A DNA stretch of 64,000 nucleotides, taken from NCBI RefSeq assembly GCF_012272825.1, contig NZ_JAAWWS010000122.1:1-64000 (forward strand), given 5' to 3'. The DNA comes from Wenzhouxiangella sp. XN79A (GTDB lineage: Bacteria; Pseudomonadota; Gammaproteobacteria; Xanthomonadales; Wenzhouxiangellaceae). Positions 8,006-57,061 of the stretch are shown in pieces (position 1 is the stretch's first letter; each line of letters begins with the position of its first letter). The notes below the pieces were generated by a model that worked only from the letters and a program-made list of their open reading frames with translations, was not told where the DNA came from and searched no databases. The position numbers and the translations under genes were made by a program.

Positions 8006-10681
8006 TCAGTCCTCGAGGATGGGGCGCAGGTACTTCTGCGCCCGCTCCAGCGGGATTTCCTTGCGCCGGGCGTAGTCTTCCAGCTGGTCGCGGCCGATCT
8101 TTCCGACCACGAAGTACTTCGATTCCGGATGTCCGAAGTAGTAGCCGCTGACCGCGGCAGCCGGATGCATGGCGAAGGATTCGGTCAGCTCCAGGCCGAT
8201 GTTGCCGGGCGCATCGAGCAGGTCGAACAGCTTGGTCTTCTCGCTGTGGTCGGGGCAGGCCGGGTAGCCGGGCGCCGGTCGGATGCCGCGGTAGGTTTCC
8301 TTGATCAGTTCCTGGTTGGACAGGTTCTCGTCGGGGGCGTAGCCCCAGAGCTCGCGTCGGACCTTCGCATGCAGTGCTTCGGCCAGTGCCTCGGCCAGGC
8401 GGTCGGCCAGGGCCTGGAGCAGGATGCCGGCGTAGTCGTCGTTGTCGGGCAGCTTCTGCCTGGCCTCCTCGATGCCGTGGCCGGTGGTCACGGCGAACAG
8501 CCCGGCCCAGTCCTCGACGCCCGAGTCGGCCGGCGCGACATAATCGGCCAGGCACAGGTTGGCCGAAGGCTTGTCGGCCTGCTGGCGCAGACAGACCATG
8601 CGTTCCAGCACCGTTTCGCGGGATTCGTCGGTGTAGAGCAGGATATCGTCACCGTCTCGCGCGGCCGGCAGCAGGGCGCAGACCGCCTTCGGCTGCAGCC
8701 ATTTCTCGTCGACGATCCGTTTCAGCATGTCCTGGGCATCGTCGAACAGGCTGGTCGCGGCTTCGCCGACGACCTCGTCGTCGAGGATGTCGGGATAGCG
8801 GCCGGCCAGTTCCCAGGTCTGGAAGAACGGCGTCCAGTCGATGACCTCCACCAGGTCCTCCAGCGGCCAGTCGTCGATGACGTTGAGACCCGGCTTCAGG
8901 GGCCTGTTCGGCGTGTAGGCGCTCCAGTCGATCTCGAACGCCTTGTCGCGCGCCGCTTCGATCGGGATCAGCGGCTTGCGCTTCTTCCGGTTGGCGTGCC
9001 GCTCGCGGAATTCTTCGTAGTCGGCCGCGATGTCCGCGGCGTAGTTGGGCCGATGGGTCCGACTGGCCAGCTTGCGGACCACGTCCACGGCTCTGGACGC
9101 GTCCTTGACCCAGACCACCGGCGCCTCGTAGGCCGGGTCGATCTTCAGCGCGGTATGGGCGCGCGAGGTCGTCGCACCGCCGATCAGCAGCGGCAGGTCC
9201 ATGCCGCGCTTCCTCATGGCTTCGGCCACGGTCACCATCTCGTCCAGCGACGGGGTGATCAGCCCCGAGAGGCCGACCATGTCGACGTCGTGCTTTTCGG
9301 CTTCGTCGAGGATCCGGTCGGCCGGTACCATGACGCCGAGATCGTGCACATCGAAGCCGTTGCAGGCCAGCACGACGCCGACGATGTTCTTGCCGATGTC
9401 GTGCACATCGCCCTTGACGGTGGCCAGCAGCACGCTGCCCTTCTTCTCGCCGACCTTCTTTTCCTTCTCGAGGTAGGGCACGAGGTGGGCGACGGCCTTC
9501 TTCATCACGCGGGCCGACTTGACGACCTGGGGCAGGAACATCTTGCCGGCGCCGAACAGGTCGCCGACGTAGTTCATGCCGTCCATCAACGGGCCTTCGA
9601 TGACCTCCAGCGCGGTGTCGTGCTGCTGACGCGCTTCCTCGGTGTCGTCGATGACGTACTTGTCGATGCCCTTGACCAGGGCGTACTTCAGCCGCTCGGC
9701 CACCGGTTTCTCGCGCCAGGCTTCATCCTTTTCCTGTTTCTGCCCGTCGCCCTTGTACTTGTCGGCGGCCTCCAGCAGCCGCTCGGTGGCATCGTCGCGG
9801 CGGTTGAGCACGACGTCCTCGACCAGCTCGCGCAGCTCGGGGTCGATGTCGTCGTAGACGGCCAGCTGGCCGGCGTTGACGATGCCCATGTCCATCCCGG
9901 CCTGCATGGCGTGGTACAGGAACACCGAGTGCATGGCCTCGCGCACCGGGTTGTTGCCGCGAAACGAGAACGACATGTTCGATACGCCGCCGGAGATGTG
10001 GCAGTGCGGGAAGCGTTTCTTGAGTTCCCGGGTGGCCTCGATGAACTCCATGGAGTAGTTGTTGTGCTCCTCCATGCCGGTGGCGACGGGAAAGATGTTG
10101 GGGTCGAAGATGATGTCTTCGGGCGGAAAGCCGATCTCGTCGACCAGCAGCCGGTGGGCGCGCGACAGGCATTCCACCATGCGCTCGGCATTGTCGGCCT
10201 GACCGGTTTCGTCGAAGGCCATGACGATCACCGCCGCGCCGTAGCGGCGGATCTTGCGTGCCTGGTCCAGGAACTGTTCTTCCCCTTCCTTCAGGCTGAT
10301 CGAATTGACGATGCCCTTGCCCTGCAGGCACTTCAGCCCGGCCTCGATCACCGACCACTTCGAGGAGTCGACCATGATCGGTACCCGAGCGATGTCCGGC
10401 TCGGCCATGATCAGATTCAGGAAATCGGTCATGGCCTGTTCCGAATCCAGCAGGCCCTCGTCCATGTTGACGTCGATGATCTGGGCGCCGTTCTCGACCT
10501 GCTCGAGCGCGACCTCGACCGCCTCGTCGTACTTCTCCTCGGCGATCAGGCGCTTGAAGCGCGCCGAGCCGGTCACGTTGGTCCGCTCGCCGACGTTGAC
10601 GAAGCCGAGCTCGGGGGTGATGGTCAGCGGCTCCAGGCCGCTCAGCCGGGTGTAGCGTCGTTCGGGTTGCGATTGGCTCAT
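8006..10681 (-). CDS. metH: Cobalamin-dependent methionine synthase, C-terminal subunit (pterin, B12 and AdoMet-activation domains)
   Basis: An 891-residue protein covering the last three modules of MetH. It has a pterin-binding TIM barrel (residues ~20-280, [14 protein letters not shown]), a B12 cap and cobalamin domain ([11 protein letters not shown] with the cobalt-ligand His, near residue 420, and [10 protein letters not shown]), and a C-terminal AdoMet-activation domain ([30 protein letters not shown]). The homocysteine-binding module is a separate gene just upstream, and the two overlap by four bases (ATGA), so a two-subunit enzyme is likely. The reaction transfers methyl from 5-methyl-THF to homocysteine. 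Such splits occur in Xanthomonads. Confidence 0.95.
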
Positions 10682-11718
10682 GCTGCCTTCTTGGTTTCGA
10701 GTTTGCGCGGCGGGAACGGCTCGACGGCCTCGCGGATGGCGTCGAGGTGGGCGGGCGTGGTGCCGCAGCAGCCGCCGATGATGTTGATCAGGCCGTCTTC
10801 GGCGTAGGTCCTGACGATTTCGGCCATTTGCGCCGGGGTCTGGTCGTACTCGCCGAATTCGTTCGGCAGGCCTGCGTTCGGGTGCGCGCTGACCAGGCAT
10901 TCGGCGACGCGCGCCAGGTCCTCGATGTGCTTCTTGAGCTGATCGGCGCCGAGCGCGCAGTTGAAGCCGACGCCGAACGGTTCGGCGTGGCGCACCGAGT
11001 GATAGAAGGCCTCGGGCGTCTGGCCGGACAGCGTGCGGCCGCTGGCGTCGGTGATCGTGCCGGAGATCAGCACCGGCCAGCGCGCGCCGCGACGATCGAA
11101 CTCCTGCTCGATCGCGAAGATCGCTGCCTTTGCGTTGAGCGTGTCGAAGATCGTTTCGACCATCAACAGGTCGGCGCCACCGTCGAGGAGTCCGCGGATC
11201 GCTTCGCTGTAGGTCGATACCAGGTCGTCGAAGGTCACGGCCCGATAGCCGGGGTTGGACACGTCCGGCGAAATCGACGCGGTGCGGTTGGTCGGGCCGA
11301 GGGTGCCGACGACGAAACGCGGTCGCGTCGGCGTTGCGGCTTCGGCCTCGTCACAGGCCGCCCGGGCCAGTTTCGCGGCTTCGAAGTTCAGTTCTTCGGC
11401 CAGTTCTTCGAGCGAATAGTCGGCCTGGCTGATGCGGTTGGCGTTGAAGGTGTTGGTCTCGATGAAATCGCAACCGACCTCGAGGAACTCCTTGTGGATC
11501 CGCTTGATCAGTTCCGGACGGGTCAGCACCAGCAGGTCGTTGTTGCCCTTGAGATCGTCTTCGTGGTCGGCGAAGCGCTCGCCGCGGAAGTCGTCCTCGT
11601 CGAGCACTTCGGCCTGGATCATGGTGCCCATGGCACCGTCCAGCAGCAGGATGCGTTCGGCCAGCGCGTCGCGCAGGGCATCCACGCGCTTCGGGTCGTG
11701 CCAGGTGTCTCGGGTCAT
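10678..11718 (-). CDS. metH: Methionine synthase N-terminal subunit: homocysteine S-methyltransferase domain
   Basis: A 346-residue stand-alone homocysteine-binding module of MetH. It begins with the family signature [12 protein letters not shown] and has [17 protein letters not shown]. The zinc ligands are visible as Cys in [11 protein letters not shown] and the Cys pair in [13 protein letters not shown]. It ends in KLETKKAA with no pterin domain; the following gene starts within its stop codon. Its ATG overlaps the ArsR-methyltransferase stop by four bases (11715-11718), so three genes form one coupled unit. The ATG at 11718 is chosen because longer frames run through the upstream gene. Confidence 0.95.
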
Positions 11719-12644
11719 GTTCGTCTCGCCAGTAGCGTGATGATTTCGAAATTCGGGGGTTTCTTCTCGACCGAGGTGACTTCGCAGAAACCCACCTCGA
11801 GCCCGGCGTCGCCGAACAATCGTTCCAGCGCGCGGGGCGAGAAACCGTTGTTGACGTGGCCGTAGGCCTCCACCTGCCGGGTGTGGCGGTGCGACTTCAG
11901 CGCAGCGGCGATCAGCGTGCCGCCGTCGCGGAGGACCCGGGCCGCCTCGCGCGCGGCCACGTCCGGCCGGTCGCTGTAGGTCAGGGCGTGAAGCAGCAGC
12001 ACGGTGTCGAACGTCGCGTCGTCGAACGGCAGGGCATGCATGTCGCCCTGGTGGAAGCGGACGTTGGCGAGGGATTCGACCCGTGCCTGGCCGGCATCGA
12101 CCACGCGCGTCGACAGATCGATGCAGTCGACCGACTCGGCCCGTCCTCCCAGCAGTTCGCCCATCACGCCGTCGCCGGAGGCGATGTCGAGCACCCGACC
12201 CGGCGTGATCAGCTGGACCAGCGCCCGCGCGGTGGACTCCCAGCTGCGACCCGGCGAATAGTGGCGTTCCATGTCGCCGGCCACCGCATCGGGCCAGTTG
12301 CGGCCGCGGGCACGCTGCGCGAGCACGTCGGGCAGACGTTCGGCGTCGGCCGCGATGACCGGGTCGTCGAGTCGGCCACGGACCATTGCCCACAGCTGGC
12401 AAAGCGCCGTGTCCCGACCATCGGTCATCGAGCGGTAGTAGACCGACACGCCCTCGCGGCGATCGGCCACCAGGCCGGCATCGCGCAGCTTTGCCAGGTG
12501 CGTCGACACGCGCGGCTGAGCCAGCCGCATGGTTTCGGCAAGCTCCGCGACGGTCAGTTCCTCGGTGTCCAGCAGTGCCAGCAGGCGCAGTCGGGTGGGG
12601 TCCCCGAGCAGCGAGCAGTGGCGGCCTACGCGTTCCAGTTCGAT
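11715..12644 (-). CDS. ArsR-type winged-helix regulator fused to a class I SAM methyltransferase
   Basis: About 309 residues: an N-terminal ArsR winged helix ([20 protein letters not shown], then [20 protein letters not shown]) joined to a Rossmann methyltransferase ([37 protein letters not shown]). It heads the split metH operon, so a regulatory role sensing SAM or SAH in the methionine cycle is likely. No ATG, GTG or TTG precedes the helix-turn-helix; the in-frame stop is TAA at 12657-12659. The first ATG (12530) would delete half of the DNA-binding domain. An ATC at 12644, seven bases after AAGGA, or a CTG at 12638, is the probable start. Confidence 0.82.
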
Positions 12645-12648
12645 GACC

Positions 12649-12690
12649 TTATCCTTTTATCTCGATCGAAAGATATATTCGCAAGGATAA
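12649..12690. promoter_or_regulatory. Inverted repeat TTATCCTT-N26-AAGGATAA over the ArsR/metH promoter and ribosome site
   Basis: Two perfect 8-base arms sit in an AT-rich stretch upstream of the ArsR-metH operon. The inner arm (minus-strand AAGGATAA at 12656-12649) contains the Shine-Dalgarno sequence of the ArsR gene. It may be an autoregulatory operator for the ArsR protein, or in RNA a stem that hides the ribosome site. Both ideas are inference. Confidence 0.5.
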
Positions 12691-54338: not shown

Positions 54339-54415
54339 CGGAGCGTAGCGCAGCCTGGTAGCGCACCACAATGGGGTTGTGGGGGTCGGGAGTTCGAATC
54401 TCCCCGCTCCGACCA
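54339..54415 (+). tRNA. tRNA-Pro(GGG)
   Basis: A 77-base cloverleaf with CCA encoded. The acceptor stem CGGAGCG pairs with CGCTCCG. The D arm is GCGC-AGCCTGGTA-GCGC, the anticodon stem is CCACA/TGTGG around loop ATGGGGT (anticodon GGG), and the T arm is GGGAG-TTCGAAT-CTCCC. It matches the E. coli proL type closely and reads CCC and CCU. Confidence 0.97.
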
Positions 54416-55662: not shown

Positions 55663-56421
55663 CTAGCTTCGCGCGTCTTCCGCGCTTCCGCGCGGCAGCG
55701 TGATCAACCGGATATGGCTGTCGTCGGCTTCGATCACGCTGCCCTGATCGAACCAGTCGCCCAGCACGAACCGCCTGACCGGTCGATCGTCGATTCGGTC
55801 GGCATGAACCGCCGGTCGGTGGGTGTGGCCGTGGATCATGCAGCCGACCTGCTCGCGCTGAAGCGTGGCCCTGACTTCGTCCGGATTGACGTCCATGATC
55901 CGTTCCGGCGCGCTGCGCGTGCGCAGGCGGCTGGCCAGGCGAAGCAGCCGGGCCAGCCCCAGGCGCTGCCAGCGCGGACGCGCCAGCATCCGACGCTGCC
56001 AGCCCGGGTCGCGGACACGTGCACGAAAGCGCTGGTAGGCCGTATCGTCGGTGCACAGCACGTCGCCGTGCAGCAGCAGCACCGGCTCGCCACCGAGGTC
56101 CAGATGCAGCGGTTCTTCGGCGCGCCGCATCCCGGCCAGTCGACAGTATTCGTCACCGAGCAGGAAGTCGCGATTGCCGGCGATGAAGATGATCTCCACG
56201 CCGAGTGCCGCGGTGGCGGCCAGCCGGTCGGCGACCTCGCGCTCGAACGGGCCGACGGCGTCGTCGCCGACCCAGGTTTCGAACAGGTCGCCGAGAATCA
56301 GCAGCCGTCGCGCCCGGCGCGCGGGGCCGGCGAGGAACTCGAAGAACTGCCGGGTGATGTCGGGCCGTCCGGCCTGCAGGTGCAGGTCGGAAATGAGCAG
56401 CGTATGGGCGTGGGCCGCGAT
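55663..56421 (-). CDS. lpxH: UDP-2,3-diacylglucosamine diphosphatase
   Basis: About 252 residues; a calcineurin-fold enzyme that makes lipid X in lipid A synthesis. Metal-site motifs are complete: SDLHLQ near residue 13, GDLFETWVGDD near 48, GNRDFLLG near 85, HGDVLCTDD and HGHTHRP. The first GTG in frame (56199) would delete the first metal ligands, so the true start is upstream. No ATG, GTG or TTG occurs there. An ATC at 56421 follows GGAG by 8 bases; CTG at 56400 is the alternative. It follows the cyclophilin gene by 22 bases. Confidence 0.9.
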   Translation of the reverse strand: MAAHAHTLLISDLHLQAGRPDITRQFFEFLAGPARRARRLLILGDLFETWVGDDAVGPFEREVADRLAATAALGVEIIFIAGNRDFLLGDEYCRLAGMRRAEEPLHLDLGGEPVLLLHGDVLCTDDTAYQRFRARVRDPGWQRRMLARPRWQRLGLARLLRLASRLRTRSAPERIMDVNPDEVRATLQREQVGCMIHGHTHRPAVHADRIDDRPVRRFVLGDWFDQGSVIEADDSHIRLITLPRGSAEDARS

Positions 56422-56443
56422 GGCCGGGACTCCGGGCGGCGGG

Positions 56444-57061
56444 TCAGTCCGAGCCGGCGGAGATCTCGACTCGCTCGATGATCACCGGCTCGACCGGTAC
56501 GTTCTGGTGGGGCGGACGCGGGGCGGTTTCGACCGCGCGGATCGCGTCGACCACGTCCATGCCTTCGGTCACGCGGGCGAACACGGCATAGCCCCAGGTC
56601 CGGCCGGACTGAGTGCCTCGATGATCCAGCGCCGGGTTGTCGACCACATTGATGAAGAACTGCGCGGTGGCCGAGTGCGGCATGCCGGTGCGCGCCATGG
56701 CGACGGTGCCCCGTGCGTTCTTCAGGCCGTTGTCCGCTTCGTTGGTGATCGGGTCGCGAGTCGGCTTCTGGTCGAGATCGGCGTCGAATCCGCCCCCCTG
56801 GATCATGAAGTTGCCGATCACGCGGTGGAAGATCGTGCCGTCGTAGTGACCGTCGCGCGCGTAGGCCAGAAAATTCTCGGTCGAGATCGGCGCATCGTCT
56901 TCGAACAGTTCGAGCGTGATCGGTCCCATGGACGTATGAAGAACGACGGTGGGCAGCGCCTGTGCGAACGGGTTGTCGCCGGCCGGTGCCGCATCGTCCT
57001 GGGCCCGGGCGGCAAACGACGACAGCAAAAGCAGGGTAGGCAGCAGGGAAACGAACTTCAT
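56444..57061 (-). CDS. Periplasmic peptidyl-prolyl cis-trans isomerase (cyclophilin type)
   Basis: A 205-residue cyclophilin with signal peptide (KFVSLLPTLLLLSSFAARA), so it should assist folding in the periplasm. Core residues include FHRVIGNFMIQGGGF (catalytic Arg), GTVAMARTGMPHSATAQFFI and the VFARVTEGMDVVDAI block. The catalytic Arg/Phe/Gln set is intact. Short cyclophilins near lpxH are common in gammaproteobacteria (E. coli ppiB-lpxH). lpxH follows on the same strand. Confidence 0.92.
   Translation of the reverse strand: MKFVSLLPTLLLLSSFAARAQDDAAPAGDNPFAQALPTVVLHTSMGPITLELFEDDAPISTENFLAYARDGHYDGTIFHRVIGNFMIQGGGFDADLDQKPTRDPITNEADNGLKNARGTVAMARTGMPHSATAQFFINVVDNPALDHRGTQSGRTWGYAVFARVTEGMDVVDAIRAVETAPRPPHQNVPVEPVIIERVEISAGSD

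Follow-up and report, generated by a model that had tools for sequence, protein, structure and literature searches.

Candidate non-canonical start codons of lpxH and a samR-like regulator gene in Wenzhouxiangella sp. XN79A and related genomes

Two genes in the 64,000-nucleotide stretch of Wenzhouxiangella sp. XN79A DNA analysed here (hereafter the window), lpxH and a samR-like gene of the ArsR family, have no canonical codon at which their conserved N-termini could begin, and both appear to start at AUC. The explanation we favour, to which as a whole we give a probability of about 75%, is that lpxH is translated from the AUC at 56421, a local variant of a weak start that in most family members overlaps the stop codon of the preceding gene, while the AUC of samR serves to keep a repressor scarce. 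Throughout, G000 denotes the window's genome, G004 its nearest relative and f1 the window's family, which is probably the Wenzhouxiangellaceae.

The window's lpxH gene, for UDP-2,3-diacylglucosamine diphosphatase, lies on the minus strand (55663..56421) and would run over 252 codons from an ATC at 56421 to a TAG at 55663, within a stop-to-stop frame of 55663-56481. Its product scores above the curated cut-offs of two equivalog models, NCBIfam PRK05340 (275 bits, cut-off 134) and TIGR01854 (269 bits, cut-off 190), which identifies it as an LpxH with a predicted enzyme activity. On the same strand, a cyclophilin-type peptidylprolyl isomerase gene (ppi, 56444..57061) ends at a TGA (56446-56444) located 22 nt 5' of the ATC. 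The first-pass annotation had claimed that lpxH lacks AUG, GUG and UUG and that its ATC follows a GGAG at eight bases, and both statements hold: the frame is free of ATG, GTG and TTG from its upstream stop to the SDLHL metal motif, the first in-frame canonical codon being a GTG at 56199, past that motif, and a Shine-Dalgarno-like GGAG (56430..56433, minus strand) stands 8 nt 5' of the proposed start codon (56419..56421, minus strand). The same annotation put the SDLHLQ block about 13 residues past the ATC, and here the closeness is right and the figure is not, as the motif begins 10 codons after the ATC. A start inside the upstream cyclophilin frame, an outcome that the annotation had set against its own proposal, is absent, since the lpxH frame meets a stop 21 codons before the ATC and contains no canonical codon between the two. 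A tRNA gene at 54339-54412 (Rfam RF00005, 59.5 bits) is the sole Rfam match in the window at the gathering score.

Only one strong lpxH match was found in the window's genome, a second (E 1.3e-7) being a distant relative, and LpxI_C was matched in none of six family genomes searched, the window's included, with a control matched in Caulobacter. LpxH is thus probably the only enzyme for its lipid A step in this genome and would have to be made. In G004, whose LpxH is 65% identical, the gene begins at a TTG, and this TTG lies 22 nt after the cyclophilin stop exactly as the ATC does in G000; in both genomes lpxH and the cyclophilin stop are in different registers. This common spacing makes the ATC equivalent in position to a canonical start, and we consider the ATC at 56421 the best candidate start for the window's lpxH. 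A CTG (56447-56445) does overlap the window's cyclophilin stop, out of frame with lpxH. The stop/start overlap that characterises termination-reinitiation pairs is accordingly lacking in the window, which has a gap of 22 nt instead, and is present in 27/42 relatives.

Comparison across the family places the window's gene in a broader pattern. Among the 43 family genomes searched, 42 carry lpxH, and AUC at its start is found in one of them, the 171-contig assembly G000, the others having CTG, TTG, GTG or ATG. In 27 of the 42, an in-frame CTG overlaps the cyclophilin stop and no canonical codon follows between it and the metal motif; these comprise 24 of the 29 lpxH-bearing genomes of genus g6, probably Wenzhouxiangella, and three of the six from the window's own genus. 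(A scripted count of 30 had included G004, G007 and G020, in which the CTG is internal, 2-3 codons before the motif; these were removed.) For 23 of the 27, the 30 codons leading up to the motif are free of canonical codons, and in the other four an in-frame canonical codon 12-25 codons before the motif lies upstream of the CTG, inside the cyclophilin gene. In G017, about 59 codons precede the first canonical codon of lpxH. The overlap comes in two registers, an 8-nt CTGAGTGA type and a 4-nt CTGA type, which place lpxH in differing frames relative to cyclophilin, and the CTG is kept in both. Where the overlap is 8 nt long, the cyclophilin Pro/Ser codon that carries the CTG is CCT (14) or TCT (4) in all 18 Pro/Ser rows, compared with 4 of 184 at the gene's ten further conserved Pro/Ser columns (Fisher p 3e-22, a value that ignores the relatedness of the rows). 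CCT accounts for 3.9-6.1% of Pro codons in G000, G004 and G017, the last with a GC content of 61.9% in the 720 kb read. Finally, G020 has lost the in-frame overlap and has GTG in the CTG column. The lack of a canonical alternative in most genomes, the two registers, the CCT/TCT constraint and the GTG of G020 in the same column all argue that the CTG is the start codon, and the family's CTG looks to be under selection. CUG initiates poorly in an E. coli system (PMC11497404).

The remaining family members, 15 of 42 including G020, fall outside the CTG pattern. Four (G019, G030, G035 and G065) have a TTG just past the cyclophilin stop; G006 has a GTG 18 codons before the motif and G011 an ATG, each with an in-frame CTG overlap further upstream; lpxH starts at ATG in G003, TTG in G004, GTG in G007 and TTG in G009; and G008, G012 and G013 offer an ATG among several candidates. 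G000 alone among the 42 lacks both a canonical codon and a CTG overlap in frame. Outside the family, the 14 order relatives read have ATG, GTG or TTG. At the G020 junction (L028), a CTGAGTAA motif still stands at the cyclophilin stop but is no longer in frame; the GTG start is supplied by a GTGAGTGA stretch further downstream that resembles it, an arrangement that looks like a partial duplication of the junction.

The second gene, samR-like and also on the minus strand (11715..12644), runs from an ATC at 12644 to a TGA at 11715 and encodes an ArsR HTH and a methyltransferase domain (HTH_5 and Methyltransf_11, both above cut-off). The likeness to lpxH that had been pointed out for this ArsR gene is real: its proposed AUC start codon (12642..12644, minus strand) has a Shine-Dalgarno-like AAGGA (12652..12656, minus strand) 7 nt 5' of it, and its first canonical codon lies 37 codons inside. 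The AAGGA falls within the right arm of an operator-like palindrome (12651..12676, minus strand) containing the ATC-10nt-GAT consensus given for SamR/SahR, for which either SAM or SAH may be the effector (PMC4239095). Next to samR on the same strand is a metH1-like gene (10678..11718; PF02574, 321 bits), for the homocysteine S-methyltransferase part of methionine synthase, whose product aligns with the first part of that enzyme. The metH1 ATG (11718-11716) overlaps the samR stop as ATGA (11715-11718), so that the weak samR AUC may also limit metH1 translation by coupling. The ArsR HTH, the metH neighbour and the palindrome together fit a SamR (SahR-like) regulator with a predicted effector. 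The gene is a putative ortholog of the Xanthomonas samR, and relatives at E <= 1e-20 were found in 143 of 151 order genomes.

Within the family, 41 of 43 genomes matched samR, and the start column reads ATC in every one of the 41. In 25 of these, the first ATG, GTG or TTG comes 17 or more codons into the gene or is not found among the first 50 codons; in 14 a canonical codon lies 3-11 codons inside, at varying places, and in two (G007 and G011) upstream of the ATC. Outside f1, rows were taken from 62 of the 119 matching order genomes and from three class genomes, bringing the total to 106. ATC again fills the column in f5 (4/4) and f11 (6/6; three further f11 genomes had no samR match), which gives 51 of 51 rows in three families. 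The 35 rows read in f2, f3, f4, f6, f10 and f12 have only canonical codons in that column (f2, 8 ATG and 1 GTG; f3, 3 ATG; f4, 5 ATG and 3 GTG; f6, 1 GTG; f10, 1 ATG; f12, 9 ATG, 2 GTG and 2 TTG). Family f8 shows 6 ATG, 1 TTG and 5 CTG/CTC, these last five with an ATG four codons upstream. The column fails to align in the 5 rows of f9 and in the three class genomes, all of which have an ATG within a few codons. Isoleucine is encoded by ATC at 304 of 396 positions inside the AUC-start samR genes as against 51 of 51 at the start (log10 P -10.5 if rows are taken as independent, which related rows are not), so the ATC does not reflect codon usage alone. A Shine-Dalgarno-like motif precedes 48 of the 51, in 40 cases as AAGGA at 7 nt, and is missing from three. 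On a quick SamR tree of 105 of the 106 rows (the partial G061 sequence was dropped), poorly resolved and with long branches, AUC versus not-AUC takes at least five changes and f1 is split by f8, so that repeated gain and ancient gain with losses are indistinguishable on it; the samR AUC may be ancient with losses, or may have been gained repeatedly. The lpxH AUC, present in 1 of 42 genomes against CTG, TTG, GTG or ATG elsewhere, has a different history.

How could such genes be translated? We propose that the lpxH AUC at 56421 would be read by initiator tRNA, aided by the GGAG and perhaps also by ribosomes finishing the cyclophilin gene 22 nt upstream. In most relatives lpxH would begin at the CUG that overlaps the end of the cyclophilin gene; G000 and G004 belong to a lineage in which this overlap is out of register, and here UUG (G004) or AUC (G000) would serve as the start. 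Weak starts of this sort probably keep the amount of an essential lipid A enzyme low and coupled to cyclophilin. Across the family, the samR AUC would probably keep the repressor low under discrimination by IF3, as for infC and Streptomyces sigR. In both genes initiator tRNA would probably read a codon disfavoured by IF3, a handicap offset either by a Shine-Dalgarno-like sequence (samR and the window's lpxH) or by a ribosome terminating at the overlapping stop (the lpxH CUG). Two features of IF3-limited starts are found in these genes: an N-terminus without ATG, GTG or TTG, and a conserved codon, the latter for the samR ATC (51/51) and the lpxH CTG (27/42) and not for the lpxH AUC. What the sequences show directly is that canonical starts are lacking, that the codons are conserved, that the neighbouring gene is constrained at synonymous sites and that the start columns correspond to canonical starts in other genomes. 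We infer that ribosomes use the AUC and CUG codons, that the coupling and the IF3 dependence exist and that dosage is their purpose.

A bolder version of this explanation makes the samR AUC a regulatory device, and the lpxH CUGA overlap a weak start under selection through which translation of a chaperone gene would set the lipid A flux. The rate of SamR synthesis would be limited by the ribosome's tolerance of a codon that IF3 discriminates against, so its level would report initiation fidelity, itself set by the supply of formyl-methionine and by the 16S rRNA methylations made with SAM; samR and infC, both of which have AUC here, would form a small AUC regulon joining one-carbon metabolism to translation initiation. 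That the samR AUC might sense SAM by way of 16S rRNA methylation is speculative; the idea comes from a review tying the RsmB, RsmD and KsgA methylations to initiator tRNA selection, in whose text the terms AUC and AUU do not occur (PMC7949028). We regard this extended version as improbable.

The first-pass annotation had gone in another direction and seen in its two AUC candidates a hint of relaxed initiation, perhaps from a permissive IF3. Comparison bears out the non-canonical starts at both genes, and the G004 TTG 22 nt past the cyclophilin stop together with the samR ATC in 41 of 41 family genomes lift the pattern above chance; the relaxation itself was not supported. Under such a scheme a permissive IF3 or initiator tRNA would let many genes start at AUC, CUG and similar codons. 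We surveyed 1,463 genes in three family genomes with a codon-usage gene finder that flags coding signal beginning well upstream of any canonical codon, a signature detectable in 241 of them. G000 (404 genes, 515 kb, 74 detectable) gave three flags, lpxH, samR and infC; G004 (529 genes, 94 detectable) gave seven, namely samR, prfB, two genes broken by TAG, one antisense frame, gcvH and rpmI; and G017 (530 genes, 73 detectable) gave four, lpxH, prfB, one TAG-broken gene and ttcA. None was flagged in the control G117 (400 kb, 324 genes, 52 detectable), where infC lies inside the surveyed stretch and is masked by an upstream TTG. Several flags were rejected: in gcvH and rpmI the first position of the model coincides with a normal ATG or directly adjoins one, ttcA was discounted because its upstream signal looked spurious on visual inspection, the antisense frame was dismissed on reading, and two weak flags (C36 101158 in G000 and C1 311618 in G017) vanish at the gene threshold. 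The gene prfB has a known programmed frameshift. It was picked up as a frame without its first part in both G004 (G004:C1 252505-253581, L201) and G017 (G017:C1 near 2.03 Mb, L206), so the scan works. Apart from prfB and the three TAG-broken genes, no gene without a canonical start was found among the 1,463 other than lpxH, samR and infC, a count with limited power because only 241 were detectable, so that further non-canonical cases are possible.

In each of the three broken genes one in-frame TAG interrupts a coding signal that continues beyond it, and a normal start is present upstream (L327 485 / G004:C1 near 580481, YceI; L314 19179 / G004:C1 near 339175, DUF6279; L299 18981 / G017:C1 58981, no Pfam match). 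Amber suppression as a general feature was rejected, as TAG is the stop codon of 66 called genes in G004 and of 79 in G017. TAG being an ordinary terminator there, these three are probably recent pseudogenes.

An ortholog comparison across 80 genes on the window's contig pointed to samR and lpxH. Among 69 G000/G004 ortholog pairs, 58 share a canonical column that is close to the coding start or lies upstream of it (a range that has no null), and in nine of the other 11 a canonical codon was seen by eye at a slightly shifted position; 67 of 69 thus have one near the N-terminus, leaving samR (in both genomes) and lpxH (in G000). In a narrower window, reaching 12 codons from the coding start, a shared canonical column is present in 51 of 69 pairs, against 0.50 for internal windows, which makes this a weak test. 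Inspection of the infC sequence gave no sign of the permissive IF3 that had been suggested: the IF3 of the window's genome aligns over its full length with that of E. coli, has no obvious lesion and looks ordinary. The infC gene itself reads ATC in seven of eight order loci (L354-L361; the eighth, G022, was not found by motif), among them G043 (f8) and G117 (f2), both of which start samR at ATG. Two genes besides infC flagged among the 74 detectable in G000, and the low power of both tests, leave some room for relaxed initiation; the recurrence of the same two genes, and no other, over three family genomes, the 67 of 69 pairs, weak as that test is, and the ordinary IF3 leave little. Both the survey and the ortholog test speak against wholesale relaxation, which we consider quite improbable, and the lpxH and samR starts are probably gene-specific.

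To much the same degree we doubt that LpxH begins at another nearby non-canonical codon, GTC, ACG, CTG or ATT, in place of the ATC. Several such near-cognate codons do lie within a few codons of it, but only the ATC combines a GGAG at 8 nt with the position of the G004 TTG, and the downstream CTG and ATT would cut into the first conserved stretch. Very improbable, in our estimate, is an error of sequencing or assembly in G000, either a miscalled start codon or an indel hiding an in-frame CTG overlap. Such an error would fit the occurrence of the lpxH AUC in one genome only and of the CTGA overlap in another frame. However, G004 has the same out-of-register spacing, so that the shift was probably inherited and a local assembly indel is unlikely, a single assembly leaving a small chance of a miscalled base at the codon itself; an error would moreover leave the samR ATC (41/41) and the CTG of other genomes unexplained, and in the indel case the start would still be non-canonical. 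A cyclophilin-LpxH fusion made by programmed frameshifting, for which no start codon would be needed, might be suggested by the overlap of the genes in many relatives, but it is hardly tenable and was rejected, since it would need one frame whereas, relative to cyclophilin, lpxH is shifted by +1 in one group and by -1 in another, and the G000 cyclophilin stop lies 22 nt before the ATC.

The favoured explanation, gene-specific weak starts, has partial precedents. The infC gene starts at ATT in E. coli and at ATC in Streptomyces (PMC5472188). Like the genes described here, it has an AUC start with a Shine-Dalgarno-like sequence (ATC in 7/8 order loci), but it encodes the discriminating factor itself and is autoregulated, which lpxH and samR do not. 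Streptomyces sigR starts at GTC and has been shown to be repressed by IF3 (PMC5472188). It resembles samR in being a regulator gene with a conserved non-canonical start, a Shine-Dalgarno sequence and a next gene overlapping by ATGA (here samR-metH1); the codon is GUC in sigR and AUC in samR, and samR is a SamR-like methionine regulator gene in three families for which repression by IF3 is only proposed. Xanthomonadales SamR is likewise an ArsR-family protein, adjoins metH genes and has an ATC-10nt-GAT palindrome upstream (PMC4239095). For lpxH, the nearest counterparts are gene pairs with ATGA or TGATG overlaps translated by termination-reinitiation (PMC6728339, PMC10666635), re-initiation having been studied in E. 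coli (PMC2268962). The ppi-lpxH pair shares their co-directional stop/start overlap in 27/42 family genomes and differs in that the family's overlapping start is CUG and the window has a 22-nt gap and an AUC. E. coli has the same ppiB-lpxH gene order, with lpxH starting 2 nt after the ppiB stop, but its start codon is GTG. A literature search whose scope took in few subscription journals gave no account of a non-canonical start for either lpxH or samR. As far as these searches show, the kind of start is known, being non-canonical and sensitive to IF3, and what is new is a conserved CUG-stop overlap and an AUC kept in several families by a methionine regulator gene.

Few bacterial non-canonical starts have been characterised experimentally, pcnB among them, and lpxH and samR add two candidates, each conserved over many species. 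Also in that small set are infC and sigR (PMC5472188). For the lpxH CUG-stop overlap, the synonymous-site constraint in the neighbouring gene supplies an independent line of evidence, and for samR the AUC is kept in three families while six others have ATG, GTG or TTG in the rows read. Gene finders limited to ATG, GTG and TTG would be expected to truncate both LpxH and SamR. In the window's genome, a start at the GTG at 56199 would strip the metal-binding N-terminus from what is apparently the only enzyme of an essential lipid A step.
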